IMG/VR virus record: IMGVR_UViG_3300037071_007185
Coordinates: 1-27,020 of that record
Source of the DNA: a virus
Direction: 5' to 3' (one strand)
Length of the DNA: 27,020 nucleotides
Under the pieces are notes generated by a model that saw only the letters and a list, made by a program, of their open reading frames with translations, searched no databases and was not told the DNA's origin. This document shows positions 4,119 to 23,549 of this stretch, piece by piece (within the stretch, counting starts at the first letter, position 1; every line of letters starts with the position of its first letter). The translations under genes were made by a program, and so were the position numbers.

Positions 4119-4123
4119 CGTGA

Positions 4124-4915
4124 TCAAGCCTTCGGTCTCCGATTATTCCCCATCGCTGGCTTATGTGTCATTGCCATATCCACTGGCCAATCGTTCTTAA
4201 TCCGCCAATTGAGCAATGACGCATCAATTCCGACAACCGCTGACCACTCGGACACATTTTTAGTGACGCCATTCCAAGTCACTCGGATATTGCTTCGGCG
4301 ATTATTGGCCTGTTGTTTCACAGTCGCCCATCGGCAATTATCCGGAGAATACCCCTTTCTTCCATCCCGCCTGTCGAGTGTTAATCCCGGCGGGCAAACC
4401 CCCATGTCGGCAAAGAAGTTCTCAAATGAATACCTCCACTTGTCGCATACAGTAATCCCAACAGCACCGTATTTCTGATACGGAGTCGAACCCTTGCAAT
4501 AACACCTATCATTCATCGCCATCCAGAGGTTGTGCTCTCTGGTTTCTGACATGCCGTGAGTTTTTAACCGCGCGGTGGAGCGCTCCCTTCCAAGGCATCC
4601 ACATGAAAGGGTTGTTCCTCTCTTGAGGCATCCAGACCTAACAATTGTTTCTGCGCCGCAATCGCAAACGCACTTCCACAACGAAGCTCGCGACGGAGCC
4701 TTTCCTGCATACTCCATCACAACAAGTTTTCCAAATCTTCTACCAGTGAGAATTTCGAGTTCCACATGACCTCCATCAAAATCACCCGCGCACCAAAAGT
4801 TAGTCCGCAACAACGGGGCGTCGTCGCCATTCGGCGGCGGGTGAAGATTTGAATTTGCGATCTCATCGGGGACTAATCCGATCAACGCGACGAAGATAGC
4901 CAGAAGCGCGGCCAT
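4124..4915 (-). CDS. HNH endonuclease with zinc knuckle and an extra exported-looking N-terminus
   Basis: The 263-residue frame has two parts. Residues 52-263 match free-standing phage HNH proteins: GRRFGKLVVMEY, a Cys cluster KCVCDCG...C...SCGC at 81-107, the nuclease core LTLDRRDGRKGYSPDNCRW at 178-196 with NNRR after it, and a C-terminal TWNGVTKNVSEWSAVVGI helix module like NUMOD/AP2-type DNA-binding tails. Such enzymes nick or cut DNA and often spread as homing elements. Residues 1-50 do not belong to that family; they begin MAALLAIFVALIGLV, a short hydrophobic segment. The ATG at 4915 has a good GAGG seven bases upstream. A GTG at residue 51 also has GGAGGT just upstream, so the nuclease may have its own start. 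The nuclease part looks more AT-rich than its neighbours, a sign of transfer. Confidence 0.82.
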   Translation of the reverse strand: MAALLAIFVALIGLVPDEIANSNLHPPPNGDDAPLLRTNFWCAGDFDGGHVELEILTGRRFGKLVVMEYAGKAPSRASLWKCVCDCGAETIVRSGCLKRGTTLSCGCLGRERSTARLKTHGMSETREHNLWMAMNDRCYCKGSTPYQKYGAVGITVCDKWRYSFENFFADMGVCPPGLTLDRRDGRKGYSPDNCRWATVKQQANNRRSNIRVTWNGVTKNVSEWSAVVGIDASLLNWRIKNDWPVDMAMTHKPAMGNNRRPKA

Positions 4916-4916
4916 G

Positions 4917-5159
4917 TCAATCCTCGTCGTCCTTGGGCGTCTCGTTTCTCACATGCTGCCTCTGGCTTATCAACCACTGTTCTATCTGCCCAAGCTGCGC
5001 GTAATAATTTCCCCCTCCGGTGGTATTTCCAGCCGTCTCCTGCTTGCCGCTGTCGTTTCGGGAAACGAATATGCGACACGCATCGCAATGTTCCATCAGT
5101 TCAGCACAGTGCTGCTCGATGATTTTCTGAATCGGGTCTGGCGTGGCGTCCTCGCTCAT
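4917..5159 (-). CDS. Small hypothetical protein, 80 residues, Cys-containing
   Basis: I do not recognise this family. The protein starts MSEDATPDPIQKIIEQHCAE and contains HCDACRIFVSRND near residues 28-40, then a Gly/Asn-rich link and a helix GQIEQWLISQRQHV. The two Cys in CDAC could bind metal but no second pair is seen. The ATG at 5159 overlaps the stop of the zinc-ribbon gene (ATGA), which I prefer to a TTG three codons upstream. Its stop lies one base before the ATG of the HNH frame, and its last codons contain the ribosome binding site for that gene, so the two are translationally linked. It is a soluble, mostly helical small protein; function unknown. Confidence 0.6.
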   Translation of the reverse strand: MSEDATPDPIQKIIEQHCAELMEHCDACRIFVSRNDSGKQETAGNTTGGGNYYAQLGQIEQWLISQRQHVRNETPKDDED

Positions 5160-5320
5160 CTCGGACAAGCCTTAAGTGGGCACGCCTTCCTACGGTGAAT
5201 CCCGAATTCCGTATCGTAATAAGTGCCACACACTGAACCGCAATGCGGGCAATGCGGCTTTCCAGAGTTGAAGAATTTGCGCCGGCTGTTGGCGCGTTCG
5301 GATTTTTGTTTGCGAGTCAT
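5156..5320 (-). CDS. Small zinc-ribbon-like protein, 54 residues
   Basis: This short frame encodes a Lys/Arg-rich protein that starts MTRKQKSERANSRRKFF and carries HCPHCGSVCG at 23-32, then HRRKACPLKACPR at the end. The CxxC and the C-terminal CxxxxC can make one zinc site, as in small phage zinc-ribbon proteins that bind nucleic acid or partner proteins. The gene fills an otherwise empty gap and overlaps the next gene by ATGA, which supports it as real. A weak TTGGA lies just upstream of the ATG. There is a 59-base gap to the LamG-like gene before it. The family is not identified. Confidence 0.6.
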   Translation of the reverse strand: MTRKQKSERANSRRKFFNSGKPHCPHCGSVCGTYYDTEFGIHRRKACPLKACPR

Positions 5321-5368
5321 GAGTCCAATTTTTACCCCGCCTCAAAAACGAAGTCAAATCAAACTGCC

Positions 5369-5405
5369 AAAAATGTCAGTCAGTGCGGCGTGTCCGAGCA
5401 CGCCG
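5369..5405 (-). terminator. Possible intrinsic terminator at the end of the LamG-like gene
   Basis: On the minus strand a perfect 7-bp stem (CGGCGTG / CACGCCG, at 5386-5392 and 5399-5405) with a six-base loop spans the last codons of the LamG-like gene. A run of five T lies about 12 bases downstream of the stem. The distance to the T run is longer than usual, so this may be a weak or partial terminator that lowers expression of the zinc-ribbon to glycosyltransferase genes. Confidence 0.3.
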
Positions 5406-6216
5406 TCAAAGTTCCGGTCACAGTGAAGTCGCCTCCCGTGCCAGCGTTGATGTGGAAAGTCGCTGAGCTATTCTTCAAAAACACGATTGGCGCCGTGCCG
5501 GTTGGAGTGCTGCCATCCGACCCAAGATTCACAGCGCCGTCGTTGTACCAGCGCGTCCGCGTCGAGTAATCGCTCAAGTCCGCAAACTCCGCCATGTTCA
5601 GGTAGAACTCGGAGACGCACGCGTTCATTTTCTGAGTCCCGTCCTGAAACGCGCCAAAGGCCCAATCAGACTGCGTGTAATCGAGTGTGTCGTCCGTCGT
5701 CACCGCGGACTCCGAATCCTCGGCGTTGGCGCCGTTGATGTACACCCGGCAGACGCCGGCCGCCAAGTCCCAAGACGCCATGAAGTGCATCCATCCATTC
5801 GCCACGATGAACGAGAACGCGCCTCCGGAGAGGGTTTTCCGCCTGAGAATTACCGATCCGGCGGAGTTGTAACCATCAACGAACATGCGCGCCTGCGCAC
5901 CACGATAAACTACGATGCCAGACTGTGAGAATCCACCAGCGGGGTAGTTCCCGATGAACACTGGAGTATCAACCTCGCTATCGTTGTGGTATTTTATCCA
6001 GAACGCGACAATCCCAACCTTGCCATCAGATGCCCCCGTAAGCCCCGCGCCGCGATTCAAATAATCCAACGCGTTGAAATCCGTAGCTGGCGGCGTGTAA
6101 AACACGCGCGGAATGCCGACCTTAAGCGATCCGACGAACGACGGACTATGGAAGCTGAATTGCGCTGAAGCGATCCAGCACCCGATGAGCGCAAAAACGA
6201 GAAGTATCTTTTTCAC
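5380..6216 (-). CDS. Exported LamG/concanavalin-like lectin-fold protein
   Basis: The 278-residue protein begins VKKILLVFALIGCWIASAQ, a Sec signal peptide with likely cleavage after ASA near residue 18; LIGC at 10-13 also resembles a lipobox, so a lipoprotein cannot be excluded. The rest reads as a concanavalin-like beta-sandwich: VGIVAFWIKYHND, ARMFVDGYNSAG, FIVANGWMHFMASWDL, VCRVYINGANAED and SEFYLNMAEFADLS follow the usual LamG strand order. Such folds bind glycans. The GTG start at 6216 overlaps the fibre stop (GTGA). Together with the upstream fibre it is likely a receptor-binding or surface-displayed appendage protein. A signal peptide is unusual for a virion protein, which normally assembles in the cytoplasm. 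Confidence 0.72.
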   Translation of the reverse strand: MKKILLVFALIGCWIASAQFSFHSPSFVGSLKVGIPRVFYTPPATDFNALDYLNRGAGLTGASDGKVGIVAFWIKYHNDSEVDTPVFIGNYPAGGFSQSGIVVYRGAQARMFVDGYNSAGSVILRRKTLSGGAFSFIVANGWMHFMASWDLAAGVCRVYINGANAEDSESAVTTDDTLDYTQSDWAFGAFQDGTQKMNACVSEFYLNMAEFADLSDYSTRTRWYNDGAVNLGSDGSTPTGTAPIVFLKNSSATFHINAGTGGDFTVTGTLTACSDTPH

Positions 6217-9200
6217 GGTTGTAGCGTGGCGGCCCAGTTTGTTCCGGTCTCGAAATCAAACGCCACCTTGCCCTTCCGGCCCGGTGGAATGACGAAGGAG
6301 TTGTTCGTGATCGCTCCGCCGTACGAGATGATCGACGCGTGAGTGCGAAGCGTGCAATTCGTGCCAACACTGTTGGTCAGCGAGAATGTTCCCGATGAGG
6401 GGAAGCCGGCCATATTTCCGATGATTCCGGTCACGCCAACATCCGAAGTCATCACGTAGCTGGAAGCAGTGTATGGATACGAAAGCGTTATTCCATTCGT
6501 CGAGCTATCCCAGACGATGATCAACGGTGCAATCAGGTCGCCGTTCGTTCCAAACCCAGAGCGAAAAGTGAAGTCCGATCGCACAGCTTGGAAGATTGCG
6601 CCTTGCTGATTCGTTCCTGCTCTGGCGTACAAAAACGGCTCATAAATTTGCTGTTGTGGGCCAGTGAAAACTGCCCCTCCCTGAGCAAGCCAGCTTTCCC
6701 CGCCATACATACTTGGAGTTAGCTCCGCATCTGGAATTGGAGGGGCAAAAAACCTCCCGATGTGCCGCGTGCCAGTTCCGCTCGCATCGTTAGTTGTCGT
6801 GTAAATTTTGATCTTGTGTCCTCTTCGCTGGTCGTTGAGGACAAGCATCCCGTTGTCAACTGTTGCGGCCGTAACCGTGCCAGCCCGAATGTCGTAGCTT
6901 GGCTTGATGCCGTCAACCGTTGGAGTTCCCATCCTGAAAATGTCGTTCGTTTTTGAGAATGAACCCAGCGTCCAGTTGTCGATGACGATGTGAGATGCCT
7001 CTCGCGTCCCATCAATGACTGGTTCTGTTTCGGATGTGCCGCCCTCCATGTGAAGGCCGATAATGTGATTGTTGATGCCGCCAAGAATGAGCGCGCTCTG
7101 CGACCACGCTTCGATGTTCAGCGTAAAAAAATACATGAAGAGCGCCCCTTGACCATCGCCGGCAGCCGCTCGCATATCTATTCCGACTTCACAGGGCCCG
7201 ATTTCGAGGTTTGCAAAGTGCGCCTGCTGTCCGTAAAGCCGGAGTCCAAGCCGCACGTTTCCGATGCGCAAATTATTGATGTGGGACTGTTGCTGTACGT
7301 TCATTTGAACACCGCCGATGTTGGTGTAAATCTGGCCGTTGACGTACACATCCTCGATGTGAACCTTGACTAGACTGTAAGCCTCCGAATCCATGAATCC
7401 AGAGCCGTCGGTTGTCAGGTTTATGCGCGTCGAGTCGGCGACGTTGGCTTTGATCGTGAGCGCGGTTGCCGAGCTGGTCACGGCGTAATACGGGATGCCG
7501 TTCGTCAGCGGCGACGGGAGTGTTCCAGCGCCCATGTCGTAAAACACCACAACCGCGTTTGATGGCGATCCGGGCGGAAGCCATCCCGCAGGCACGGTGA
7601 TAACATCCGTGCTCGCGCTGGCAGTGAAAGCGTTTCGTGCGCCCTGTCTGGAGCCTAACAGGTAAGCATTTGTGTTCCCTTGTGGTGTCAAAGAATTGGC
7701 GTTGATCTGGATATTTCTCAACCGGGTGCTATTCGGAATCACCAGAGGCACGCCACCCGATATTGCGCTACCGGCTCCGTTGTAAATCACTCCAGCATTC
7801 CCCGCTTCATTCATCCCCTTCAGCATTTCGTAACCGGAGTTGTTACCGATTCCGGGAGATGTTTTGAACGCGGTTGGATACACTTCGCCTTGATCGTTCC
7901 AGACCACCCTCTCGCCTGCTGTGTGCGCCCTTGCCAGAGAGATATTGAATGACGCTGTGGCGCTTGAAACCGTGCTCACGGATCGGATTTCGGCATTCGT
8001 TGTCCCCCACCCAACGTAAACCCTGCCAGCCGTTCCAGCCGGGAACGCCGCCGGCCGGTCGAGGGTGACGCTGGTTGCGCCGACCAGAGTTGAAGCTGAA
8101 AGGTTGTACGAGAAAATCTCATTCGTGAACGCGGCAGACCCGTTGAATGTCAGCGACCAGTTCGTGATCCATCCACCGTCCAAAGACACAACGTCGGTGG
8201 CGTACAGCCCCCAAGAGCCGTTTGGAATCGTCCCGTTGAACACGCTTAAGTTCGTTGAGTAAGGACCGTTGGCAGGCGTTCCGGCAGCGGTTCCGTCGCG
8301 AGAGGTCGGGCGGTATGTTCCGTTTGTGATGGTCGCCTCCGGGACAAATTCGGTGGCGGAAGTCGTAAACACCATGTTCGCGTATGCGGGCGGAGCAAGT
8401 GAGTCGCTCCCGCACCCGTCCATCAGTTTAATCTGCTGCCCGTCCGGTCCGACCAGCACCAGCACAACGTCGCTTGGAACGCTGTGGCTAAACCCATTGA
8501 TGCTGACGCTCATTGAGACAATCGTTCCGTCAATTCCTGACACGACAATGCTGGACGGATACGGGGTTGCGTCTCCGGATTCGGAAATGGTTATCACCGA
8601 CGAGTTCGTGAAGCTTCCCGACGCCGAATCGCCAGACCCTCCGGATCCGGATGCGGTTGATGAAATCGTCCATGCACGCCCATTGGCGTTGGTGCCAATC
8701 GTGATGTTGCTTCCGGGGATGAGGTCGAGTGCGTTCGACATGCCGATCGCGTTTCCGTAAACCTGACCATTCAAGACTATCCCGCCTGTTGGAGCTTCGA
8801 CCTGAAACCGTCCGTACACATCGTTGGTGTAAAGACGTTCCGACGAGCTCCCGGTGTTCGTGCCGACCCATATGTAAGAATACTCACCTAAAGCCGTGCC
8901 TTGTCCGTGTGCCTGAGAGGCATACGCGCCGGCAATTGCCTCAATCCCGGTAGTAATGCTGTAATCTCCGGCCGCGCGCGTGTTTAGACCGCTCCCGTGA
9001 GCCGACCTCCCGTTGACGACGTTTGATTCTCCCTCCACATGCCCGTAGATCGCTGGAGAATTTATCGTGTTCCCATTTCCCTCTGCATGAGAACCGGAGG
9101 CATTGGCGGCGGTTCCAAATCCTTCCGAGTGCGAAAAAACACCAGCCGCACGAGTTCTTCCGCCTTCTGCATGGGAGAATTTTCCGACGGTTGACAGCGC

Positions 9201-9479
9201 GTTCGATCCGTTGTCTAACCGCGCGACATTCGTGAGGGAAAAAAGCGCTCCATTGATGTCGCTGAGCCAAGGTGTTTGGGATTGACTGAACAGATTGCTC
9301 GACGACAGGTTGTAATTTGTCTCACCCACGCGCCCGATGATGAACACGTCCGACCCAAGAAGGTTGGTTGTGTACGGATACTTTGCACCGTCTGATGTGC
9401 GCCGGAACTGCCCAGAAGCAGGCAGTCCAAACGATAGCATTAGTGCAAGAGTTGCAAGTTTCAAAATTGTGTTTTTCAT
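6213..9479 (-). CDS. Large exported fibre: YadA-like head, P-domain, beta-helix
   Basis: The 1088-residue protein has a Sec signal (MKNTILKLATLALMLSFGLP, cut near residue 24). Residues about 98-200 hold YadA-like head repeats such as FSHAEGG, FSHSEGF, GSHAEGN and YGHVEGE. Residues about 290-447 match a proprotein-convertase P-domain: VPSDVVLVLVGPDG, then IPNGSWGLYATDVVSLDGGW and WSLTF. From about 560 to 850 there are short strand turns with many N and G (LRNIQINANSL, INNLRIGNVRLGL, NHIIGLHMEGGT) as in a right-handed beta-helix tailspike. The likely role is receptor binding or host-surface contact, probably as a trimer. The ATG at 9479 has no clear ribosome binding site and lies nine bases after the vWA stop. 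The stop overlaps the LamG-like gene. The P-domain is rare in phage fibres. Confidence 0.8.
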   Translation of the reverse strand: MKNTILKLATLALMLSFGLPASGQFRRTSDGAKYPYTTNLLGSDVFIIGRVGETNYNLSSSNLFSQSQTPWLSDINGALFSLTNVARLDNGSNALSTVGKFSHAEGGRTRAAGVFSHSEGFGTAANASGSHAEGNGNTINSPAIYGHVEGESNVVNGRSAHGSGLNTRAAGDYSITTGIEAIAGAYASQAHGQGTALGEYSYIWVGTNTGSSSERLYTNDVYGRFQVEAPTGGIVLNGQVYGNAIGMSNALDLIPGSNITIGTNANGRAWTISSTASGSGGSGDSASGSFTNSSVITISESGDATPYPSSIVVSGIDGTIVSMSVSINGFSHSVPSDVVLVLVGPDGQQIKLMDGCGSDSLAPPAYANMVFTTSATEFVPEATITNGTYRPTSRDGTAAGTPANGPYSTNLSVFNGTIPNGSWGLYATDVVSLDGGWITNWSLTFNGSAAFTNEIFSYNLSASTLVGATSVTLDRPAAFPAGTAGRVYVGWGTTNAEIRSVSTVSSATASFNISLARAHTAGERVVWNDQGEVYPTAFKTSPGIGNNSGYEMLKGMNEAGNAGVIYNGAGSAISGGVPLVIPNSTRLRNIQINANSLTPQGNTNAYLLGSRQGARNAFTASASTDVITVPAGWLPPGSPSNAVVVFYDMGAGTLPSPLTNGIPYYAVTSSATALTIKANVADSTRINLTTDGSGFMDSEAYSLVKVHIEDVYVNGQIYTNIGGVQMNVQQQSHINNLRIGNVRLGLRLYGQQAHFANLEIGPCEVGIDMRAAAGDGQGALFMYFFTLNIEAWSQSALILGGINNHIIGLHMEGGTSETEPVIDGTREASHIVIDNWTLGSFSKTNDIFRMGTPTVDGIKPSYDIRAGTVTAATVDNGMLVLNDQRRGHKIKIYTTTNDASGTGTRHIGRFFAPPIPDAELTPSMYGGESWLAQGGAVFTGPQQQIYEPFLYARAGTNQQGAIFQAVRSDFTFRSGFGTNGDLIAPLIIVWDSSTNGITLSYPYTASSYVMTSDVGVTGIIGNMAGFPSSGTFSLTNSVGTNCTLRTHASIISYGGAITNNSFVIPPGRKGKVAFDFETGTNWAATLQP

Positions 9480-9488
9480 AAATCAAAA

Positions 9489-12200
9489 TCAGTCTGGGAA
9501 GGGTTCACCGCCTTCACCGCCAATCGGATCGTCTTCGTCTTCACCGGCGATGAAGTTGCCTTCCTCGTCCACGCAGACCAGCGCATCCTCCGCAGCTTCC
9601 CGCGCGGCATCCTCGGCCATTATTCTGGCCTCGTCCGCACTGTTAAAACTGTGGCCGACGGCGCTCGACGACGACTCTCCGAATGTTCCAAATGGGCAAG
9701 TGGCGACGTACGTCGCGGTCGCCGTGTATCGGAACATGCAATTCAACTCTGCGTTTGCGAGCGCTTCAGCTTTGGCTATGGCATCGTTATCTGCGGCAGA
9801 TTGGCTGCTTCCCTCGCCATCGCTCTCAGCGCACGCCAAAGCTTCGACGTCGCCGAACAGGGACAACGCCATCACCTTTCCGTCGGCGCTTGGGAATCCC
9901 GGTCCAAGGCTGATTCGGTAGTACAGGTAGGCGTCAGAGGCGGCTGGAAGCTCGTATGCCGCCGTCAGTCCGGGAATGACGAACCGCTGGATAGTCGAGT
10001 CCAGCGGGAACCACGTTACCCGGTCAAATGACCCCTGAAAGAACATCGTCGAATACGGGAAAAATCCGCTCGGATTCCAAATTCGGTTGAACGTGACACG
10101 GTATCGCCTGACTGCCGTCGCGGTATCGAGTCTGACAATTGTCTGGTATTCCGCATTGCCGAGTTCTCCGGATTCGAGCGTTTCACCAGACAGTTCCGGG
10201 CCGAAGTTGACGTAGCCATCGGGGCACGAAGCGCAACCAGTTTGAGTTGATGTGAAGTTTCCGGGCGGCACATTTCCAGCCTCCAAAATCGGCAGCGGAT
10301 TCGGGTCTTCAAGCTGGGCCACTGGCGGAGTATCGAGGCAACCGTCGCCGTAGCAGTTGTAACCGTAAGCGTAGCCAACCAGCGTCGCGTACTCGCCAAC
10401 CGGCGCGGTTGGGTCTCCCGAAACTGGAACCCACTCTCCGACTGGGAAATCATTCGGTGCGCAGGTGTAAAGCACGGACGCCATCGAGTCGCGAATTTCC
10501 CATGCGCCACTATCCTCGCTGAAGATGATTTGGTTTGTGCCTCCACTGGCTTGAGTCCACTCGGTCTCGCTGACCTTGGTATATTCTCCATTTACATCGG
10601 CGGTCCCGGAGCCGAAAAGCGTGAGGGAGTTCGTATCCGTTCCAATCTCCTGCGGGATGGTGCCTTGGCCGCATTGAGGCCCGACATACACTGGGTTCTC
10701 GGAGTCGAAGTTGTCCGAGAACAGGATCGTCCCGTGCGTGACACTGCTCAGGGTCACGGAGTTCACTAAGATGCCGGACATTTGATCCGGGTCAGGAATC
10801 GGAAACCCAATCGAGGCAATCTGCTGAACCTCGATCTTCACCATGCACTCAACGGGCGGGATGAACGTGAAAAGGTAGTCGTGAAACCCGCTCAAATAGT
10901 CTTCAATCAGGATATTCTGAATCCAAAGGTCCGCGGAATCTTGGCTGCGAACCTTAATTTGTACCGTCGCAAGCGAGTCTGCGAAAACGTGGTTGCCGGC
11001 CATGTTCAGCACGACACGGTATTCCTCGCCGGCAGCCACGGCGAATGAATCCTTCGTGATCAACAGCGGGTTGGCCGGCGTGCCGCTTCCAACCAGATCG
11101 AGATAGAGGCCGTTTCCGGGCAGGTAATCGAAGAAGCCGTTTCCCAATAAATCAACCGACCCGCCTCCCGAGATATCCCATTTCAGCAAATCCGTGAATG
11201 CGAGCGTGCCTTGGTTTTCAACCTCGTCTCCGGCCGGCGTGCAGTTTCCGGCGCAAAGATACCCCTTGAGCGCAACGACGTAATCGAGCGCGGCGTCCTC
11301 AGTGGCTTGGAACGCGTTGACGAAGAATCCTCCCGTAGAAATTCCCGAGAGAAGGTTGTAGCCGGCGCCGTGAGCCCTCACACCCAACGCCACGATGATT
11401 CCACCAGCCGATTTGAAATCGTCGGCGAGTTGGATTGGGTTCGGAAACTCGACGTAGCTGGGCGTCGTGTCCTCGCCGTCGGAAATCAGGACCAGCAGCT
11501 TACGGTCTGCCGTCGTCGCGTTGAGAGAGTCGATGGCTGCCGCGAGCGCATCGTAAAACGTCGTGTCGTCCTGCGTCTGTAGAATCTGAGGCACGAGCGC
11601 GGCGACAGCAGCCTTGTCGGATATTGGCGGCGAGAGAACCGTGGCTTGCTCCTTCGTGAACCGGGCCAAACCGACCAAATCCTTGTCTTCGTTGACGCTT
11701 TCAATCAGAGCCGTTGCCGCAGTTTTTGCGAACACGAGCTTCTTCGTGTAAGACGAGGAGAACTGCTGGGACATGGACCGGGTTTGGTCCACCAGAACCA
11801 TGATCGCAACCGTCAGGTCGTCGCAGCAATCCGCGCCAGACATTACCGTGATTTCCGCCTGCGCTGTCTGCGATTGGTAGGTGGCTGTAATCGTGGCCGA
11901 GCCAGCACCGGTACCGGTCGCGTTTCCGGTTGTTGCTCCGATTAGCGCAACGTCCCCGTTCGAGCTTTGGAAGATCGTAGATGAAGTGACATCCGTTTCC
12001 GCGCCGTTGATAACCGTGAACGCGCGGAATGAGACGCTTCCGAGTTCGCAGATCAAGGAGACGCCCGGCTTGATGATGAAGCGCTCCTCAGCCGGGCAAA
12101 GGTCAGGGTGCGCCAAAGCATACGCGAGGTCGTCGCACCTTGTATCGGGCGGCGGAGGCGTGTTTACGCACTGAATGGTGCTGATGCGCCCAAGGTTCAT
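9489..12200 (-). CDS. von Willebrand factor A domain protein with Ig-like and carbohydrate-binding-like modules
   Basis: The 903-residue protein has no signal peptide. Residues about 40-120 resemble a BIG2-type Ig domain (FIIKPGVSLI ... SATITATYQSQTAQAEITVM). A vWA domain follows at about 128-340 with the metal site DQTRSMS at 138-144 (Thr replaces the usual first Ser), DDTTFYDAL near 211-219 and ISDGEDTT near 239-246. The next part, LPGNGLYLDLVGSG ... EEYRVVLNMAGNH, resembles DUF642/galactose-binding-like sandwiches. The end carries one and a half Cys-containing repeats like those of the adaptor, then an acidic tail. vWA domains bind protein ligands through a metal. The ATG at 12200 overlaps the adaptor stop (ATGA); a longer frame upstream was not used. 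The likely role is an adhesive tail or neck appendage. Confidence 0.82.
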   Translation of the reverse strand: MNLGRISTIQCVNTPPPPDTRCDDLAYALAHPDLCPAEERFIIKPGVSLICELGSVSFRAFTVINGAETDVTSSTIFQSSNGDVALIGATTGNATGTGAGSATITATYQSQTAQAEITVMSGADCCDDLTVAIMVLVDQTRSMSQQFSSSYTKKLVFAKTAATALIESVNEDKDLVGLARFTKEQATVLSPPISDKAAVAALVPQILQTQDDTTFYDALAAAIDSLNATTADRKLLVLISDGEDTTPSYVEFPNPIQLADDFKSAGGIIVALGVRAHGAGYNLLSGISTGGFFVNAFQATEDAALDYVVALKGYLCAGNCTPAGDEVENQGTLAFTDLLKWDISGGGSVDLLGNGFFDYLPGNGLYLDLVGSGTPANPLLITKDSFAVAAGEEYRVVLNMAGNHVFADSLATVQIKVRSQDSADLWIQNILIEDYLSGFHDYLFTFIPPVECMVKIEVQQIASIGFPIPDPDQMSGILVNSVTLSSVTHGTILFSDNFDSENPVYVGPQCGQGTIPQEIGTDTNSLTLFGSGTADVNGEYTKVSETEWTQASGGTNQIIFSEDSGAWEIRDSMASVLYTCAPNDFPVGEWVPVSGDPTAPVGEYATLVGYAYGYNCYGDGCLDTPPVAQLEDPNPLPILEAGNVPPGNFTSTQTGCASCPDGYVNFGPELSGETLESGELGNAEYQTIVRLDTATAVRRYRVTFNRIWNPSGFFPYSTMFFQGSFDRVTWFPLDSTIQRFVIPGLTAAYELPAASDAYLYYRISLGPGFPSADGKVMALSLFGDVEALACAESDGEGSSQSAADNDAIAKAEALANAELNCMFRYTATATYVATCPFGTFGESSSSAVGHSFNSADEARIMAEDAAREAAEDALVCVDEEGNFIAGEDEDDPIGGEGGEPFPD
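9573..9809 (-). repeat. Protein-level Cys repeats at the end of the vWA gene
   Basis: Residues about 798-876 of the vWA protein contain a half repeat ending in AELNC and a full unit FRYTATATYVATC to AEDALVC. The unit has the same order as in the neighbouring adaptor: aromatic start, ATAxCP, a strand, then an Ala-rich helix that ends with Cys. It resembles DUF5977-type repeats. The resemblance is at protein level only. Confidence 0.55.
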
Positions 12201-13987
12201 GGTGGGTTGCAAATGGACTGATCTGGCAGCGGTGTCAGGCTGGTGTTGAAATGCTGCCCGACCTGCTCGGGGCACGGGTCGCTCGGACTTCCAGATTGGA
12301 GAATCTGACATTGCGTCGCCGCGAACTGGTTCGCCTTAACTTGCGCCATGCTGTCCGCTAAGTTGTTTGCGGCCGTCTGATTGGAGGCAGTAACGACTCC
12401 AGCAGGGACAGAGACCCTGATTTCCAAACTACATGTTCGGTTTGATGGGGCGACGTAACAGCCAACAAAGAATGTTAGGGTGCCGCGGTCTTGATTGCAA
12501 AACACCTGAACCGGATCCGGGCAGAGACCCGCAAGCAGCAATGTCGCCTGACGCAGCGCTTCCTCGTAGGCGAGTTGGTTCGCCTTGGCTTGCCCACCTT
12601 CTGCCGTCGTTGCGCTGAACGTGCTTTCTGCCACGGTGTAGGTTTGAGGATTCGAATCATCCTCGCAGGCCACGTCCGCCGTCTGCGGCGCGTTGTAAAA
12701 CGTGCAGGCGAGTTGGGCCGCGGCAAGCTCGTCGGCGGCATCTTGAGCATCTTCTGTAGCAGCATCCTCGCTGACCGTCGAACTGTATCCGTGCCCGGGC
12801 CCGCCGGCAGGTATGCTGACGGACACGTTATCGCCAGCCGCTGCCGGAGTGTCGCCGCTTGCCGCCGGGCAACTCGCGTGGCCGACCACTGCCCGGTTGT
12901 AGTAAATCACATCTTGCGTCTGGCAATCGAGTTGCGCCTGAGCCATCTCGCGGGCTTGGTCGATCGCCTTCTGATTCGCGTCTCCTTTTGAAATCGTCGA
13001 GGCGATCGTTTCCGCCGGCACAATAACCGTAACTGGTTCTCCGGTCTGATTTGCCGGGCAGGTCGCCGTGGCCTGCTGCTGGTCATTGTAGAATAGCTTG
13101 ACCACCGGGGCGATGCCGCGCGCGCCTCCAGAGCCGCCATCACGTTCGGATTCGCAGGACCGCACACGGTTTTCTTCGGCGCAGTCATACATCAATTCCG
13201 AGAGAGCTTTGCGGTACTCGAGCTCGTAGAGGCTCGCGGCATTGGCGTCGCGATCCCAGTCACGAGCGTGCTCCCAGCGCAGGAACAACTCGACGGCTCG
13301 AAACAGTCCCGGATCATCATCAACGAGGTCTGCGTCCACCCAGTCGCGTTTGATGCCGTTCCATCGCAGCAATGCCGATTCGGTTGTCTGGAGCCATGGC
13401 GCAACCAGCACGCGTCCGTTCTCGACGGCCCACACTCCCGCCTGCGCACGTCCAAAATCGGAGTCCGTGGAAGCCTGTGGGTATTTGTAGCCAAGTTGGA
13501 GCGCTGGCAGACCGGCTGGCACGCCCTCGTCGGTTGGCACTGGCACGGTGTTCTTGTTTCCGCAGAGGCCGGCTGGAATCGCGAAGAATCCGGACAGCGT
13601 GAACCCAAAGCATCCAGCCTCACGTGACCGACCAAGCCAATTCCGTATGTGGCACGGATCCACCTGCTGGTATTCGATCTCTGAACAATAATCGTCAGGA
13701 GACTCAGGATCCTCTCGGCCCGTCTCCGGGTTGATCTTGTCGATCACGGATAGTCTCATGATGCGCGCGCGCGGGAAGTCGAACGATGTCAGGCCGCAGT
13801 TGAAATACGTGGCGCAGTGGGGGACGATGTGCGTGTTGTTGTTCTGGAGGCATTCAACCCAACGCTGGAGGTCCACCAGCGCGTCCAAGATGGACTTGTC
13901 GTGCGCGATCCTCAAATTACGCGCCTCGCCGGCCGGGAACACCCGCGAGCGAACGGCGGTCTTGAATTGGAGGAACGTCAGTGGCAA
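12197..13987 (-). CDS. Neck adaptor (head-tail connector) fused to four Cys repeats
   Basis: The 596-residue protein has two parts. Residues 1-285 resemble portal-side adaptors of short-tailed phages: MPLTFLQFKTAVRSRVF, a VECLQNNNTHIVP segment, then ALLRWNGIKRDW with FRAVELFLRWEHARDWDRD and LYELEYRKALSELMYDC, a helical pattern shared with tail tubular/adaptor proteins. Residues 299-560 hold four units of about 57-67 residues that start FYN or a variant, contain ATAxCP or similar, VxVPAG, and end in an Ala-rich helix with Cys, as in DUF5977-type repeats. The TTG start at 13987 is supported by GAGGA seven bases upstream and by the stop of the previous gene four bases before it. The stop overlaps the vWA start. 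The adaptor would join the portal ring to the tail; the repeats may project from it. Confidence 0.72.
   Translation of the reverse strand: MPLTFLQFKTAVRSRVFPAGEARNLRIAHDKSILDALVDLQRWVECLQNNNTHIVPHCATYFNCGLTSFDFPRARIMRLSVIDKINPETGREDPESPDDYCSEIEYQQVDPCHIRNWLGRSREAGCFGFTLSGFFAIPAGLCGNKNTVPVPTDEGVPAGLPALQLGYKYPQASTDSDFGRAQAGVWAVENGRVLVAPWLQTTESALLRWNGIKRDWVDADLVDDDPGLFRAVELFLRWEHARDWDRDANAASLYELEYRKALSELMYDCAEENRVRSCESERDGGSGGARGIAPVVKLFYNDQQQATATCPANQTGEPVTVIVPAETIASTISKGDANQKAIDQAREMAQAQLDCQTQDVIYYNRAVVGHASCPAASGDTPAAAGDNVSVSIPAGGPGHGYSSTVSEDAATEDAQDAADELAAAQLACTFYNAPQTADVACEDDSNPQTYTVAESTFSATTAEGGQAKANQLAYEEALRQATLLLAGLCPDPVQVFCNQDRGTLTFFVGCYVAPSNRTCSLEIRVSVPAGVVTASNQTAANNLADSMAQVKANQFAATQCQILQSGSPSDPCPEQVGQHFNTSLTPLPDQSICNPP
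12308..13093 (-). repeat. Four tandem Cys repeats inside the adaptor gene
   Basis: The units cover residues about 299-355, 362-428, 430-489 and 497-560. The first three start FYN, YYN and FYN; all carry one Cys near the start and one at the end of an Ala/Gln-rich helix (AQLDC, AQLAC, LAGLC, AATQC). The fourth is more diverged. The repeat is visible in protein but not as near-identical DNA, so it is old. Spaced Cys pairs could make disulfides outside the cell or bind metal. Confidence 0.65.
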
Positions 13988-13990
13988 TGG

Positions 13991-14638: not shown

Positions 14639-14677
14639 GGTGTTTGGTGTGTTTTTGTTGGTGGTTTTGTGTGAGAA

Positions 14678-14706: not shown

Positions 14707-14747
14707 ACGAATTCATATCTGTCCTCTCAGTGAACGGGACTGCGGGA

Positions 14748-16493
14748 TTACGACGGCGTGGTCGTGGTCGTGCTCGTGGCCGGATACCGCAATCCGTTGA
14801 TCTCCTCGTGATTCGGCAAGCCCTCTGCAAAATTCTCCAAGATCAAGTTCTCTGCCGGGCATTCCACGATTGTAGTGCCGGTGACGCTCATCAGAGTCTG
14901 CTGCCGCGTGTGAACCTTCATCACGCAGGCGAAGTCGGCGTGGACAGACGCGAGCGCTTTCAAATCTCCCGTGTTTTGAACCAGACGATTGCTGGCCATG
15001 ATGCCGGGGTAGATTCCGGCGAAGTTGAGCACCCAAAGGCGACGGGCCGTGTCGCCGATTCCGGCAAACTCCGCAACCGCGATTTCGTCGTCGAAGGCAT
15101 AGTGCGTCAGGACGTTGAACACAACACCCGCCGGCCAGTGGAGATTGTAGCTCCGGTAAAGGAAACCGAACTCCGCCTGTTTCTGAACACCGAACGGGCC
15201 GGCGTCAGCGTTGATCCGCAGAATCGCCTCGCCATTGTGATCTTCGGCGCGGGCGCTGTAATACTTGATCATCGCTCGGTTAATCCACTCAGCGGTCGTC
15301 GTATCGACGAACGCATCGATCTGCTTATTGTTGTCCCCGCGCGCATTGCGAATCCGGATGATGTCGTAGAACGCGTGGAAAAGGGCGATGAGGTTCAACT
15401 GCTCGCCGAGCAAATCCACTACTCGGTCACACTCAGCCAACTGCTCATAAACACCTACCGGCTCCGCGCGCTTGCCGACGCAGATGCCACCGTCCACACC
15501 AAGCGCTGGAGTAATCGTGCTGCCTTCGGTCGCATCGAAGCTTTCGATGTCGTCCAACTGGTCATACGTGGCGACGTTCTGGTTTTCGAGCGGCTTCGCC
15601 CAAAAGAAGTCCTGAACTTCGGCGCGTTGAAACTCCATCGCCAACTGGCGATTGCGCTCCACGTCGGGCACGTCGCCGAACTCACGGAACAGCGGGTTGT
15701 TGGAGAGCATCAGAGTGCGCCATTCGTCGTAAGCGCTCGACTTGCACATGCTCCAGCGGCGCGTCTTGATCCAGTATTGAATCAACTTCTTCGTGTTGTA
15801 GGCAGGCTTCTCCTGACACTCCTTCTCGAAGTCGTCCACGTTGTTGTTGCCGCGCGTGAGGTAGCCACCAGTCGGCGTCAAATCCAGCTTCGAGGCGTCG
15901 AGATTGGACTCACTGTTTTGAGACGACAGCACGAGGTCGATAGCGGCGCCATTCAGTGTCGCCGTTACTACCTTCCACGCCGTGCGGCTCGCGGCGCCGC
16001 CGCTGCCGGCGGAGTTCAGGAACACATTTATTCCAATTGGAAAGCTGCGAACGTCGAGCGGCACATTGCCGGCGCTGGTGACGGAAACCTCCCAGTTTCC
16101 ACCGCTGGCGTTGCCGCCAGCGAACAGCCAATACTCGTTGTTGATCGGAGAGAATTGGCGGGCGTTGATGAATGGGGCAATCCGCATGAGCGCAGAACTG
16201 CCACCGATGGGCACGCGCTTGCCGGATATGTTTACCTTGTTCGCCATCAGGAAGTCGTAGAGGCCGTTCTGCTTCGCCTCGCACGATTTGATTTCCATCT
16301 GGCTTTTGAGCAAATGCTCCATGACTCGGTATTCGCCGGATTTGGCGTACACCGACTCAAGATCGCCGGAGGTCAGCGGGCGGGCGTTACAGAGCGCGAC
16401 GGATCCGCACTGCCGAAGGTTGGTTGAAATGTTTGGCGCGCACTTGGAAAAGGCGTTCTCCGTCAACAGGAGGTTGTTGTCAATCGTGGCCAT
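14748..16493 (-). CDS. Probable major capsid protein
   Basis: The 581-residue protein follows the scaffold-like gene and precedes the adaptor, the standard place for the major capsid protein. It has no signal peptide, and its mixed composition (DFEKECQEKPAYNTKKLIQYW, SSAYDEWRTLMLSNNPLFREF, EFQRAEVQDFFWAKP, FDATEGSTITPALG) fits a large HK97-type shell protein. The end is LPNHEEINGLRYP plus a Thr-rich tail. It is longer than many capsid proteins, so an inserted domain is possible. The ATG at 16493 lies one base after a strong hairpin and lacks a free ribosome binding site. A GC-rich hairpin follows the gene. The call rests on order, size and absence of other motifs, not on a diagnostic signature. 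Confidence 0.75.
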   Translation of the reverse strand: MATIDNNLLLTENAFSKCAPNISTNLRQCGSVALCNARPLTSGDLESVYAKSGEYRVMEHLLKSQMEIKSCEAKQNGLYDFLMANKVNISGKRVPIGGSSALMRIAPFINARQFSPINNEYWLFAGGNASGGNWEVSVTSAGNVPLDVRSFPIGINVFLNSAGSGGAASRTAWKVVTATLNGAAIDLVLSSQNSESNLDASKLDLTPTGGYLTRGNNNVDDFEKECQEKPAYNTKKLIQYWIKTRRWSMCKSSAYDEWRTLMLSNNPLFREFGDVPDVERNRQLAMEFQRAEVQDFFWAKPLENQNVATYDQLDDIESFDATEGSTITPALGVDGGICVGKRAEPVGVYEQLAECDRVVDLLGEQLNLIALFHAFYDIIRIRNARGDNNKQIDAFVDTTTAEWINRAMIKYYSARAEDHNGEAILRINADAGPFGVQKQAEFGFLYRSYNLHWPAGVVFNVLTHYAFDDEIAVAEFAGIGDTARRLWVLNFAGIYPGIMASNRLVQNTGDLKALASVHADFACVMKVHTRQQTLMSVTGTTIVECPAENLILENFAEGLPNHEEINGLRYPATSTTTTTPS

Positions 16494-18373: not shown

Positions 18374-20908
18374 TTATGATGAGGAGTCGCCAGTTTTGGC
18401 GGAAGCTTTCGCCGTCTTTCGCTTCGCACTCGCCGCAGCATCCGCTTTAACTCGCGCAGCATCGGCATTGGCTGCCGCGAGGACTTGCTTGTTTTGAACG
18501 TCAACCGCGGCTTTTGTGCTGGCGATGCTGACGTCCAACTGCGCCTTTTCAGCGTCGCGCGCCAACTGGGCATGGTGCTCGGTATCGAGCCTCTGCTGCT
18601 CGGCTATCTGGGCCTCATTGAGCCGCTGCTGCTCCGCCTGCGCCACCTGCGCGTCGAGTTGAATCTTTTGAGCGGTCTCCGCAGCTTTCACATTCGCCTT
18701 ATCGCTCGCGTTCTTTGCGAGGGCGTAAATGCCTTCGAGTTGCTTGACGGTTTCCTGAAGCTGCTGAATCTCCTGCTCCTGCTTCGCTGCGCTCTCGGCG
18801 GCCGGCTTGGCGACATTCTCAGTGATGCCTTGCTCAATTGTTTGCTTTAACTGCTGGAGGATCGGCGCAATCTGCTGAAGGATCGCCGGTGACACTTGCT
18901 GGTCGGGAGATTCGGAGGTCAAGTCGTAGTCGTCGGGCCCGCCGGTCAATTTGACGACGTGTTCGAGCATTTTTATGATTCGCTTCACGCCGACGGCAGC
19001 CGTGAATTCCGCATTGGATGCGATGACTTGAACGCCTTGCATGATGGCCTGCGCGGCCTGCGCATCATTGCTCTCGCTCGGATCCACGTTGGTTCGCGCA
19101 AACGCGACGTAGGGGATGCTCGACTTCCTTCCAACCACCAGCTTCTTGTACGGACCGTCGCCGGTGATCTTGAATCCCATCTCGAACAAAATCTTGTCCA
19201 ACCCCGGCGTGTTGTCCGACACCTGTGCCGTCACTTCGTCATCCCGATAAGCCCGGTTCGCCTCGACGAGTTGCTGCATCCACGCGTCGCGCCCTGCGTC
19301 GATGGACGAGCTCGTGAATCGCAACCGGCTGTCCCCGGAGTTTCTCACCGTTACTACCTCCTCCTTGCTCTGGTAGTGGGATGCTGCCGCACCCGTCTCC
19401 TGCGCCGTGATCTGAAGCACGCGCTCCATGAGGTTCAGCGCTGTGCTGAGCATGGACTGTAATTCCACGATGGAGCGATACTGGAACTGCGGCGAGAAGA
19501 ACGCCTGCTTCACGTCGAGCCCAGCGCGGGCCATCTTCAGCGAGTCGTACCCGAGATAGTTACGGCTACGGTAACGTCGCTCGCCCAGATTCTCCTGAGA
19601 TTTGATGTCCTTCTCTGTGACGATGTTTTTGTCGTAGAAAATCGTGTTGTCCAAGTTCTGCTTCGCTGTGAGGATCATCTGGCTCAGGATATTCCCAAGG
19701 TGGTCCTGCCACGGAATGGTCTCCAAGCTGAAGCTCGAAGGCGTGCCGGCCTGCGCGTCGAAATCATAGCCACCGAAAATCATCGGGTTGTACGCGCACG
19801 GCGCCGCCCAAAGAATCGTGTCGTCGCTGGCGACCGTGAACCGATGCCATACTGGGTACTTGTAATCGCCCAAGCCCCAGTTGCTCGGGATGAGTTTCCA
19901 GAAAAACTCCGTCTTGAATACCGCGGCATCACGTTGGCTCGTGCCGTAGTATGCTGCCTTGTCCTCGCGCTTTGCGGTCGGATCCGTCGGTGTCGGGAAC
20001 TTCAGCCGGCACGGGAAAACCTCGTTGAAGTATTGCCGGTACATCGGCTTGTCCATCCAGTTCGTGCCGAACGTAATCGCGCTCCGATTCCAGAGCATCC
20101 GATTGTCGAGAATGTCGCCGTAGCGCATCACGTCCCAGTGCCAGCCAAATTCGCAGCCAGTGTCCGTGTTGATCGTCGGCGCTGGATGGTTAAGATCAAT
20201 CCCCATGCGAGTCGGGTGCGGCAGGTGGTAGCGCAGACCCTCCTTCTGTACGCGTGACTTCCCGTCCACAACCTGCTTCTCGCAATGCCACTCCTCCATC
20301 GGGAACATGACGCAAATCCCGTACTTCAGGATTTGCTGGATGAACTGCTTAAGGTACTCGGTGTGGCCATACCACTGTGTGGTCGTGTCGCAAATATCCG
20401 TCCAGATTTCGCAGGCAACCCGGTTCGCGTCAGTATTTTTTGCCGGACGGTATTTGAACAGCGGGCTCGTGTCCCGCTCGTTGTAAATGCGCGCCGTCTT
20501 CGCCATGTGATACGCGCGCACGATCGGGATGAGGATTTGAAAGAAGATCGGCGGGTTGAGGTATTTTTTGACCGTGCCGTCGCCTTGATCTACGGACAGG
20601 AATAATTCCTTCTCGGAAAGCCCCCACGATTCCAATTGGTCGAGCACCCCTTTCGCGTCGAGATTTTTGCTCAGGAGGTTGCTGACGAGCGTCGGTGTGG
20701 TCTGTGCGAATGGCGTTTCATGCGCGAGGTCGATCGCCCAGTAAAGCCGGTAGTCGGCGAGATTGGCTTCGCGGCCGTCCACGATGCGCTGGGAAATGGT
20801 GTCAACCAACTTTTGAATCTTCGGCGATTTCTTAGGGGCCGTGAACAATTCCTTGTATGCCCCGCTGGAGACGCCGCGCTTTTTGAGTTCCGAAAGGTCG
20901 TAACTCAT
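18374..20908 (-). CDS. Portal protein with long coiled-coil C-terminus
   Basis: The 844-residue protein shows the build of large portal proteins: an N-terminal helical and loop region (MSYDLSELKKRGVSSGAYKE), a central part rich in Trp, Tyr and Pro (TQWYGHTEYLKQFIQQILKY, PFQ-like turns, DIKSQENLGERRYRSRNYLG, FFSPQFQYRSIVELQSMLST), then a helical stem and crown. Residues from about 690 onward form a long coiled coil rich in Ala, Gln, Lys and Glu (AEQQRLNEAQIAEQQRLDTE), like the barrel of long podovirus portals. Portals form the dodecameric ring through which DNA enters and leaves. The ATG at 20908 overlaps the stop of the small Tat-like gene (ATGA), so the longer frame upstream was rejected. 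It is followed by the 110-residue gene and the scaffold. The long barrel is a useful class marker. Confidence 0.82.
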   Translation of the reverse strand: MSYDLSELKKRGVSSGAYKELFTAPKKSPKIQKLVDTISQRIVDGREANLADYRLYWAIDLAHETPFAQTTPTLVSNLLSKNLDAKGVLDQLESWGLSEKELFLSVDQGDGTVKKYLNPPIFFQILIPIVRAYHMAKTARIYNERDTSPLFKYRPAKNTDANRVACEIWTDICDTTTQWYGHTEYLKQFIQQILKYGICVMFPMEEWHCEKQVVDGKSRVQKEGLRYHLPHPTRMGIDLNHPAPTINTDTGCEFGWHWDVMRYGDILDNRMLWNRSAITFGTNWMDKPMYRQYFNEVFPCRLKFPTPTDPTAKREDKAAYYGTSQRDAAVFKTEFFWKLIPSNWGLGDYKYPVWHRFTVASDDTILWAAPCAYNPMIFGGYDFDAQAGTPSSFSLETIPWQDHLGNILSQMILTAKQNLDNTIFYDKNIVTEKDIKSQENLGERRYRSRNYLGYDSLKMARAGLDVKQAFFSPQFQYRSIVELQSMLSTALNLMERVLQITAQETGAAASHYQSKEEVVTVRNSGDSRLRFTSSSIDAGRDAWMQQLVEANRAYRDDEVTAQVSDNTPGLDKILFEMGFKITGDGPYKKLVVGRKSSIPYVAFARTNVDPSESNDAQAAQAIMQGVQVIASNAEFTAAVGVKRIIKMLEHVVKLTGGPDDYDLTSESPDQQVSPAILQQIAPILQQLKQTIEQGITENVAKPAAESAAKQEQEIQQLQETVKQLEGIYALAKNASDKANVKAAETAQKIQLDAQVAQAEQQRLNEAQIAEQQRLDTEHHAQLARDAEKAQLDVSIASTKAAVDVQNKQVLAAANADAARVKADAAASAKRKTAKASAKTGDSSS

Positions 20909-21147
20909 GTGGAAAAGCTTTCGACCACGGGGCAGCCTTCTGGAAACATTGCATTCCACGTCATCGAGTGGAGCGTTGTCTCAGGTGTTGCGCGCACGAT
21001 TACGCAAGAGTATGTGGAATCAACCTCGAAACGTCGTTCAGGAAGTAGAAGCGCTTCAAATCGCCTTGAAAATGCAATCTGCGGCGCGACCGCAACAACA
21101 GCAGCGAACGCGGTGAGTCGCTTGAACAGTGATCGTCGGGAGATCAT
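20905..21147 (-). CDS. Small protein with a Tat-like signal, 80 residues
   Basis: The protein begins MISRRSLFKRLTAFAAVVAV. The SRRSLFK segment resembles the twin-arginine motif S/T-R-R-x-F-L-K, and it is followed by a hydrophobic stretch and a possible cleavage region near APQIAFS. The mature part is short (RRFEVDSTYSCVIVRATPE ... EGCPVVESFST) and has two Cys. I do not recognise the family. Its ATG overlaps the upstream stop (ATGA), and its own stop overlaps the portal ATG, so it is tightly coupled to head genes. A Tat-exported protein in this place is unexpected; a small virion or portal-associated protein whose basic N-terminus only mimics a Tat signal is the main alternative. Confidence 0.62.
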   Translation of the reverse strand: MISRRSLFKRLTAFAAVVAVAPQIAFSRRFEALLLPERRFEVDSTYSCVIVRATPETTLHSMTWNAMFPEGCPVVESFST

Positions 21148-21863: not shown

Positions 21864-21974
21864 AAATGACAGTGTGGTTCAGTGTTTTCGGTTGCGTGCG
21901 CCCCGGGTAGCGCGTTTATTACTAATGCACTAAAGCAGCAAGATTGGCTCGCTGCAACCGAAATCGCAAACACC
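21864..21974. promoter_or_regulatory. Divergent gap that should hold both array promoters
   Basis: This 111-base gap separates the leftward array from the terminase gene and is the only place in the window where both arrays could start. On the plus strand TTGCGT (21892) and TTTATT (21915) are 17 bases apart, a weak sigma-70-like pair. On the minus strand TAATAA lies over the same AT-rich core. Neither match is strong, and a GTG in the gap could extend the terminase frame, so exact start sites are not called. Confidence 0.35.
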
Positions 21975-23549
21975 ATGCCAGAAGCGTTCAGTATCTCTCC
22001 AAAGCAAAAGGAAGGGATGGAGATTTGCCGGCGGAAGCAGTTCGTGCTCTTTTCAGGGCCACGTCTGACCGGTAAAACTCAATGCTCGCTTCACTGCCTG
22101 CCTGATCACGCTTGGCGCACTGATCGCGGGAACATCTCAATTTGCGCCATCAGCCAGTCAACCGGCCTCGACTCAGGTGTCTGGAAATCGCTCACTCAGG
22201 TCACGATACCAAGCTGGATCAAGTCGGGCATGGGGATGAAATGGGCGCGGAAGCCTTACACGCAGAACGTCACGAAGCGCCCGTGCTGCTCCGTCACGAA
22301 TTCCTTCGGCGGCATTTCTGAATTCCAACTAGACTCGCTAAAAATCGAGCGCGAGGTCGAGGACCGCTTCAAAAGCCGTGAGTTTACCGCGCTTTATGTC
22401 CCCGAGCTTTCTCACTTCCGCGAGAAAAAGACATTCGACATCTGGAGCGAGTGCCTGCGCGCGCCGCACCTGACCGACGACAAGTTCCTGTTTCTGGCCG
22501 ATACCAACCCGTCAGACGATGGCGAGCAAAGCTGGATTTATTTCCAGTGGTTCATCCTTCCCAAGCTCAACTACGATGAATACTGCCAATACGCCAACAA
22601 ACGGGATTTGCCGATCCTCTCGGAGAGCGCGCTCGAAAGCTACAAGGCGTCGCTTGGTCTTCTCGAATTCCAGATTTCGGATAACGTATTTCTGTCCAAG
22701 GCGCGCGTCGAGCGGTTGGAGGCGACGTATGCTAGCGATCCAGACCTGCACGACCGGTACATCAAGGGTCTATGGAAGCAAGCGAGCACGGATGCCCTTT
22801 TCTCAAAGGTTTTCAGGCCGAGGTTTCATGTCGTTGGCGAGATCGAGACTCCCGGAAATCCAGACCCGGAAATCCTCGTCCCCGAACTGTCAACGTCTCG
22901 AATGCCGACCGGATGGGATCCCGGAGACGGCGTGAACAGCGCCTTCTGCATCGTTGAAAAGACGGAGGGAAAGATTTACCTGCCGAGTGGAAAAGCAGTT
23001 GTGAAGTCCATTTTCAAAGTCCTCGACGAGCTTGTCATCACGGGTGAGGACCACAGCCTCGACGACTTCACCGAGGAAGCTGTGAAACTGATGGAGTGGT
23101 GGGAAGATCGCGAGGGAAAACCTTTTGAGTGGGAATTCTGGAGCGACCGATCTGTGTTCGACCGCAAGGAGCCGCGCCACAAAAAGCTGTACCACCAAAT
23201 CATCTACGAGGCATCCGGTGGCTCGGTCGTTCTGCGGGCCGCGGATCGCGGGCCGGGCAGCGTGCAGCAGCGCATTCAGCTTTTGAGGAAGCTTTTGTTC
23301 GAGGGTCGCATTCGATTCAGCAACGACAAATGCCCGCGCACGATCGAGATGTGCCGGTCAATGCGGCCCGGAAAGAGCGGCTTGCAGCCGATTCAGAAGG
23401 GCAGCGTCCACAAGCACCCTTTCGACAGTCTGATGTATTGCATTGCCAGCGAGTCCTACGACGAGCTTGAAGAAATGATGATCAATCAGATGAGAACGTC
23501 CCGCGACGAAAACCAAAATGAAAGCTCGGTCATTGCGATACCGATGTAA
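21975..23549 (+). CDS. terL: Terminase large subunit
   Basis: The 524-residue protein has a Walker A loop SGPRLTGKT at 27-35, a Walker-B-like strand ALYVPELSHF at 139-148, a coupling motif FLFLADTNPSD at 171-181, and an RNase H-like nuclease with acidic residues in GWDPGDG (D315), WSDRS (D391) and HPFDSLMY (D484). It packages DNA: ATPase pumps it through the portal and the nuclease cuts. The Walker B strand has Pro where Asp is usual, with Glu after it. The ATG at 21975 was chosen because the ATPase begins soon after; a GTG at 21882 would add 31 residues without known motif. Its leader ends AAACACC, as in the 215-residue gene, and lacks a Shine-Dalgarno. It is divergent from the portal, unlike the common terL-portal order. 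No small subunit was identified. Confidence 0.92.
   Translation: MPEAFSISPKQKEGMEICRRKQFVLFSGPRLTGKTQCSLHCLPDHAWRTDRGNISICAISQSTGLDSGVWKSLTQVTIPSWIKSGMGMKWARKPYTQNVTKRPCCSVTNSFGGISEFQLDSLKIEREVEDRFKSREFTALYVPELSHFREKKTFDIWSECLRAPHLTDDKFLFLADTNPSDDGEQSWIYFQWFILPKLNYDEYCQYANKRDLPILSESALESYKASLGLLEFQISDNVFLSKARVERLEATYASDPDLHDRYIKGLWKQASTDALFSKVFRPRFHVVGEIETPGNPDPEILVPELSTSRMPTGWDPGDGVNSAFCIVEKTEGKIYLPSGKAVVKSIFKVLDELVITGEDHSLDDFTEEAVKLMEWWEDREGKPFEWEFWSDRSVFDRKEPRHKKLYHQIIYEASGGSVVLRAADRGPGSVQQRIQLLRKLLFEGRIRFSNDKCPRTIEMCRSMRPGKSGLQPIQKGSVHKHPFDSLMYCIASESYDELEEMMINQMRTSRDENQNESSVIAIPM

Follow-up and report, generated by a model that had tools for sequence, protein, structure and literature searches.

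The DNA analysed here, a virus record 27,020 bases long that is referred to as the window, carries one set of genes on the minus strand and another on the plus strand. The minus-strand set comprises a portal-like gene (18374..20959), a probable scaffold gene, a probable major capsid protein gene (14748..16493), a gene for a signal-less, adaptor-like tail protein with a DUF5977 repeat (12197..13987) and a VWA/Big_2 gene (9489..12311), beyond which lie a pair of genes encoding exported proteins, an HNH-like gene and then glycosyltransferase-like genes. The probable portal protein, which was the basis of the clade search, and the probable capsid protein, which was used to find relatives, were assigned by position and conservation, with no family match. 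The VWA/Big_2 protein, whose true start is probably the ATG at 12200, lacks a signal and is conserved along its length in the relative G001 described below (50% and 40% identical), making it a candidate virion appendage; it keeps a MIDAS-like DQTxS motif, as does the G001 version, and could possibly act as a metal-dependent adhesin in the particle. The glycosyltransferase-like genes, a run of probable members past the tail genes (204-4127, minus strand) that is conserved in G001 and in a second relative, G002, have a possible role in modification of the virion or of the host's surface.

On the plus strand the large terminase gene (21882..23549; phrog_2, E=5e-14) comes first, followed by small genes and two genes encoding exported proteins (24850-26496 and 26499-26921) in what is here called the exported-fibre slot. 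Adjoining the terminase, the small gene 23518-24006 (plus strand) encodes a protein with a hydrophobic segment in its N-terminal region and a conserved part rich in Cys (CFRCP..CGSP..GCHC), and its position is conserved in G001, L011, L014, L035, L036 and L041. Another small gene, 20905-21147 (minus strand), overlaps the portal start and has a twin-arginine-like signal at the N-terminus of its product (MISRRSLFKRLTAFAAVVAVAPQIAFS). Similar N-termini occur on small near-portal genes of L038 (3633-3965), L045 (12543-12788) and L069 (5830-6096), and in L082 (536-1360) and L073 (2385-3335) the gene immediately following a fibre-like one encodes a protein of 260-320 aa with a Tat-like signal.

The larger gene of the minus-strand pair (6213..9479) encodes a fibre-like protein of 1088 aa that begins with a predicted signal peptide (9411..9479; MKNTILKLATLALMLSFGLPASG^QFRR) and contains a YadA-like stalk and a proprotein-convertase P-domain-like module (P_proprotein, E=4e-4, scoring slightly below the gathering threshold), the remainder being a probable beta-rich body. 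The YadA-like region is 39-47% identical to the immuto tailspike and to the tail fibre of Verrucomicrobia phage P8625. The similarity is confined to the stalk, and the C-terminal outer-membrane beta-barrel anchor of YadA was absent in a Pfam scan. A search of viral contigs with the 1088-aa sequence returned no relatives, and an AlphaFold model built without an alignment was unusable (pLDDT 30). Its neighbour (5380..6216, minus strand) encodes a LamG/concanavalin-like lectin protein of 278 aa (Laminin_G_3, E=3.8e-6) from a GTG start at 6216 that overlaps the stop of 6213-9479. Its predicted signal peptide spans 6163..6216 (MKKILLVFALIGCWIASA^Q, with the GTG start read as M; N-terminus with the predicted cleavage point, VKKILLVFALIGCWIASA^QFSF). 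The earlier note had described both proteins as appendages, a term that suits the stalk-bearing protein; its neighbour has a LamG-type lectin domain and is not a demonstrated fibre. In G001 and G002 the VWA gene is directly followed by the glycosyltransferase-like genes and the minus-strand pair is absent, so that the pair sits in an insertion of 5.4 kb relative to these genomes (4128..9488), together with an 83-aa ORF and the HNH-like gene. The latter (4124-4915, minus strand), an HNH-endonuclease-like gene assigned by eye, lies at the edge of the insertion and suggests possible homing-type mobility.

The plus-strand pair is preceded by a small signal-less fibre-type protein gene (24500..24853), whose position is occupied in relatives by short 'GSPEGVV..GNTGW' proteins. 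Its stop overlaps, as ATGA, the start of 24850..26496 at 24850, which encodes a fibre-like protein of 548 aa with a predicted signal peptide at 24850..24903 (MRLAVAIILAAFVFHADA^AVV). The small protein encoded by 26499..26921 (140 aa) has a weak match to phrog_27054 and a signal peptide predicted at 26499..26573 (MKTKHIALSVLLASLAFLIAPSSHA^GVT); neither member of this pair has a Pfam match. The counterpart of 24850-26496 in G001 (66228-68138, minus strand) also bears a signal, while the mature parts of the two proteins have no similarity detectable by BLAST. A frameshift fusion of the signal-bearing gene with the small gene upstream was considered and rejected in both genomes: in the window the signal gene starts at the stop codon of 24500-24853, and in G001 just past the corresponding stop.

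In each of the four proteins an n-region with positive charges is followed by a hydrophobic core and by a cleavage site with A or G at -1. At the sequence level this confirms textbook Sec/SPase I signal peptides at the starts of the genes. The prediction was made with a hand-written n/h/c-region score, on which all signal counts given below rest. With this score the Sec signals that the earlier note had seen on the two minus-strand genes were recovered at their N-termini, and its two further exported proteins in the rightward array correspond to 24850-26496 and 26499-26921. Since the starts of 24850-26496 and 5380-6216 are fixed by start/stop overlaps, their signals lie at true N-termini. Immediately beyond each of the four signals, no other start codon preceded by a Shine-Dalgarno-like sequence was found; a hidden signal-less form made from an internal start was considered unlikely for this reason, although such sequences are sparse throughout the clade. 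Contig L009 is 100% identical to the window across a 9.9-kb overlap that includes the plus-strand pair, and continues for 6.4 kb past the window's right end. Scans of the four proteins against Pfam and PHROGs yielded no muralytic catalytic domain, and sequence searches of PDB with three proteins gave no match.

The capsid search led to G001, a complete relative of 78,085 bases with 127-bp direct end repeats, and the portal-based search to 37 and later 172 related viral contigs, of which 80 were kept. Identity between the window and G001 reaches 69% for the portal, 65% for the capsid and 65% for the terminase; no relatives of the capsid or portal were found in 50,697 phage genomes. After the terminase, G001 has four consecutive signal-bearing genes (63312-68219) encoding a fibre-like protein, one without assignment, a right-handed beta-helix protein (Beta_helix) and a fourth that looks like a glycoside hydrolase, and G002 has a comparable run at 44489-49085. 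Where the slot contains a long Asn/Thr-rich fibre-like gene, the gene has a signal: such a gene follows the terminase in L011, L022, L035, L037, L041/L046, L043/L050, L056 and L061, and in L051, L073 and L075 such genes lie elsewhere, near the portal. The mature parts encoded in the slot are unrelated across lineages and include alpha-galactosidase, polysaccharide deacetylase, beta-helix and lectin modules. Some of the exported proteins are chimeras in which fibre-type repeats are joined to Melibiase_2 (alpha-galactosidase; L037 and L046) or Polysacc_deac_1 (polysaccharide deacetylase; L022), modules that could elsewhere be annotated as auxiliary metabolic genes. Pfam scans covering the window proteins and ten relatives gave no match to Peptidase_S74. 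Based on this evidence, the exported proteins are best read as a hypervariable, glycan-acting fibre module of an uncultured clade of short-tailed (podovirus-like) phages.

Other features were observed in these genomes. Small proteins with lipoprotein-type signals (LLAGC, ALAFSAC) are encoded near the module in L009 (12452-12934, plus strand) and G001 (60600-61022, minus strand), with further examples in L028 and L050; these are possibly outer-membrane exclusion proteins or spanins. On the opposite strand of G001, a 3306-aa ORF (12892-22812, minus strand) probably encodes a giant ejection or internal virion protein.

The association of signals with this gene class was evaluated in a set of non-redundant clade genes, in which signals were found on 18 of 23 Asn/Thr-rich genes (at least 150 aa) compared with 16 of the 297 others (Fisher p ~5e-16). 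The Asn/Thr criterion was chosen on this same set, and more weight is therefore given to the set fetched later, where 4 of 8 Asn/Thr-rich genes and 8 of 233 others bear signals (p = 2e-4). One of the five exceptions in the first set is an ORF-start error (G002 44489-47665, with the real start well inside the ORF), and two of the four in the later set are canonical fibres of the distant-branch members L101 and L105. The gene 42305-43930 of G002, examined as a signal-less exception, was rejected as such: it encodes a Gln/Asn-rich protein beside probable ejection-protein genes. When the same score was applied to T7, P22, N4, P8625 and immuto, 4 of 120 genes were positive (GtrC, the N4 spanin, the N4 endolysin and one small immuto protein) and none of them encodes a fibre.

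Two features of the residues around and beyond the signal bear on its use. Gln directly follows the predicted cleavage site in 17 of 28 signal-bearing proteins, including two of the four exported proteins of the window, compared with a mean of 3.2 and a maximum of 9 in 5000 trials in which the downstream residues were shuffled. This bias argues for real SPase I cleavage, as an uncleaved hydrophobic N-terminus gives no reason for it, and the signals are likely cleaved. A preference for Gln at +1 after SPase I cleavage, the Q-rule, has been described for Bacteroidetes (PMC5837995) and may or may not apply to the host of these phages. In addition, 11 of 15 lineages have a [YFI]TT[NGQ] motif after the signal, counted within mature residues 4-18 with one extra residue allowed after the first position; shuffling gives a mean of 0.17 and no more than 3. 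The motif was defined after part of the data had been seen, and it was present in all three lineages fetched after it had been proposed (L056, L061 and L073). The retention of the signal and of a short docking-like segment on dissimilar mature cargo, as between the window and G001, suggests that the cargo is exchanged. Support for export thus extends beyond the window: syntenic genes keep the signal as their mature parts change, and the +1 Gln bias accompanies it. Homologues without the N-terminal segment, which the earlier note had named as counter-evidence, do exist; they were seen only in the distant P8625, immuto, L101 and L105 and in none of the syntenic relatives.

No match to the portal profile was obtained in 84,980 bacterial and archaeal genomes, and thus neither a prophage nor a host was found. 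Shine-Dalgarno-like sequences precede 25% of genes in the window and G001, against 11-12% expected by chance, 21% in P8625 and 54-69% in T7, P22 and N4, and GC content is 50-59% in the signal-bearing members sampled. The combination is in keeping with Verrucomicrobiota and would be atypical of Bacteroidota, so that a verrucomicrobial host is suspected as a guess.

Export of the products of the four genes is well supported by sequence, and the explanation favoured here, with somewhat better than even confidence, is that they constitute a Sec-exported, SPase I-cleaved cargo module acting outside the cytoplasm on glycans of the envelope or matrix. According to this model, the preproteins would be made together with the virion proteins, exported by the infected host via Sec and cleaved by signal peptidase I. 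The mature products are fibre-like stalks, in many cases fused to modules that bind or cut glycans. The module is encoded mainly downstream of the terminase, with an extra pair in the 5.4-kb insertion by the VWA tail gene in the window phage. Late in infection the proteins may act on host envelope or matrix polysaccharide, either within the periplasm or, once the cell has lysed, beyond it. Receptor glycans would be removed or masked and the matrix loosened, so that neighbouring cells and debris do not trap the progeny. The sequence itself shows the signals, their retention in the slot, the bias at the cleavage site, the make-up of the modules and the order of the genes; from these we infer actual export, its timing, the site of action and the benefit. 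The glycan-degrading modules found in several relatives favour action on envelope or matrix polysaccharide; this target, which the earlier note did not name beside surface coating, marking of infected cells and assembly of an outside appendage, is considered the most likely. Counted against the model are the failure to find any outer-membrane sorting or anchoring domain that would explain how the exported proteins leave a diderm cell before lysis, and the location beside virion genes combined with extreme variability, which is also the look of receptor-binding proteins.

This last point underlies the main rival proposal, unlikely but deserving serious attention, in which the proteins are receptor-binding fibres of the virion that are exported, fold outside and dock after lysis through the segment following the signal, perhaps onto the product of 24500-24853. 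The slot does lie beside structural genes, directly after a small fibre-type gene; hypervariable mature parts behind a conserved N-terminal motif form the pattern of receptor-binding proteins, and the motif could equally be a virion-docking element. Moreover, the VWA protein aside, G001 and G002 show no other trimeric-fibre-like genes. That protein, however, is signal-less and conserved along its length, and as a candidate appendage it could take the receptor-binding role in place of the exported fibres. Some of the cargo, comprising small proteins, beta-helix proteins and stand-alone FnIII, does not resemble fibres, and we know of no tailed phage that assembles its fibres in this way. A clade of tailed phages completing its adsorption apparatus outside the cytoplasm, with Sec-exported, periplasm-folded fibres docking at or after lysis, is regarded as improbable. 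The alpha-galactosidase, polysaccharide deacetylase and beta-helix modules could also be explained if the proteins were auxiliary carbohydrate-active enzymes, exported so that the infected host can be nourished by the products of polysaccharide breakdown. This seems quite improbable, given that many members are just stalks and lectin-like modules without a recognisable enzyme, that the enzymes present are flanked by fibre-type repeats, and that the variability suits surface glycans more than nutrition.

The two remaining explanations question export itself. The signals might be unused, either structural hydrophobic N-termini or relics of host secreted domains on fibres assembled in the cytoplasm as usual, and the distant homologues of the stalk module in P8625 and immuto indeed work without them. 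A functioning signal would, however, divert cytoplasmic fibres, and useless signals should therefore be lost; instead they persist over unrelated mature parts, and Gln at +1 after A/G/S(-1) in 17 of 28 proteins would have no role in an uncleaved helix, all of which makes this explanation very doubtful. Finally, a 27-kb virus record without a known host could be a mis-joined contig, include host genes in a viral bin or carry wrong start codons. Such an artefact is largely refuted by the identity of L009 over 9.9 kb, by independent complete relatives with the same layout and by the two starts fixed by start/stop overlaps, and its probability is considered close to negligible.

Tailed phages are assumed to build their fibres in the cytoplasm. 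If a clade routinely exports its most variable host-interaction proteins, this would imply either a phage secretome that remodels the outer glycans of the host during infection or an extracellular step in assembly of the particle. Viral glycoside hydrolases and deacetylases that are reported as 'auxiliary' in soil and water may likewise belong to fibre modules of the exported kind. The enzyme modules offer direct substrates for testing.

Known tail fibres and tailspikes assemble on the particle in the cytoplasm. The exported proteins resemble T7 gp17 and virion tailspikes or depolymerases such as P22 gp9 in having hypervariable fibre stalks, glycan-active modules and a location beside virion genes; they differ in bearing signals, which were absent from the fibres of T7, P22 and N4 when these were tested. 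As this defining no-signal feature fails, they are not classed as ordinary tail fibres. Phage P8625 (NC_029047) shares the YadA-like stalk module and the low use of Shine-Dalgarno sequences, but its fibres lack a signal and it belongs to another phage type, with a tape-measure gene. Trimeric autotransporter adhesins of the YadA type have a stalk similar to that of 6213-9479 and a C-terminal anchor that is missing here. Use of the host Sec pathway is shared with SAR endolysins and spanins, and the N4 endolysin and spanin also score positive; those proteins serve lysis, acting on peptidoglycan and membranes, whereas the proteins described here have fibre or glycan modules and predicted cleavable signals. 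PblA and PblB of Streptococcus phage SM1 resemble phage tail proteins and occur on the surface of the host; they belong to a Gram-positive prophage and are described as reaching the surface after permeabilisation, not by signal peptides.

In the literature searched, of which coverage was partial, exported fibres were not found described for any phage clade. The closest analogue is the MAT (mosaic adhesive trimer) proteins of Bdellovibrio bacteriovorus, signal-bearing, modular fibres resembling phage tail fibres, in which a conserved beta-rich domain of ~130 aa directly follows the signal and a C-terminal S74 peptidase/chaperone is present in 13 of 21 members (PMC10769870). MATs are encoded by a bacterium and serve predation, while the proteins described here are phage-encoded and, unlike MATs, without S74; the conservation seen after their signal is limited to the short [YFI]TT[NGQ] region. 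Being viral and devoid of S74, the exported phage proteins are not filed as MATs. They nevertheless share with MAT fibres an N-terminal signal peptide and a variable, modular fibre architecture (PMC10769870) and, as presumed for the phage proteins, a place of action outside the cytoplasm.
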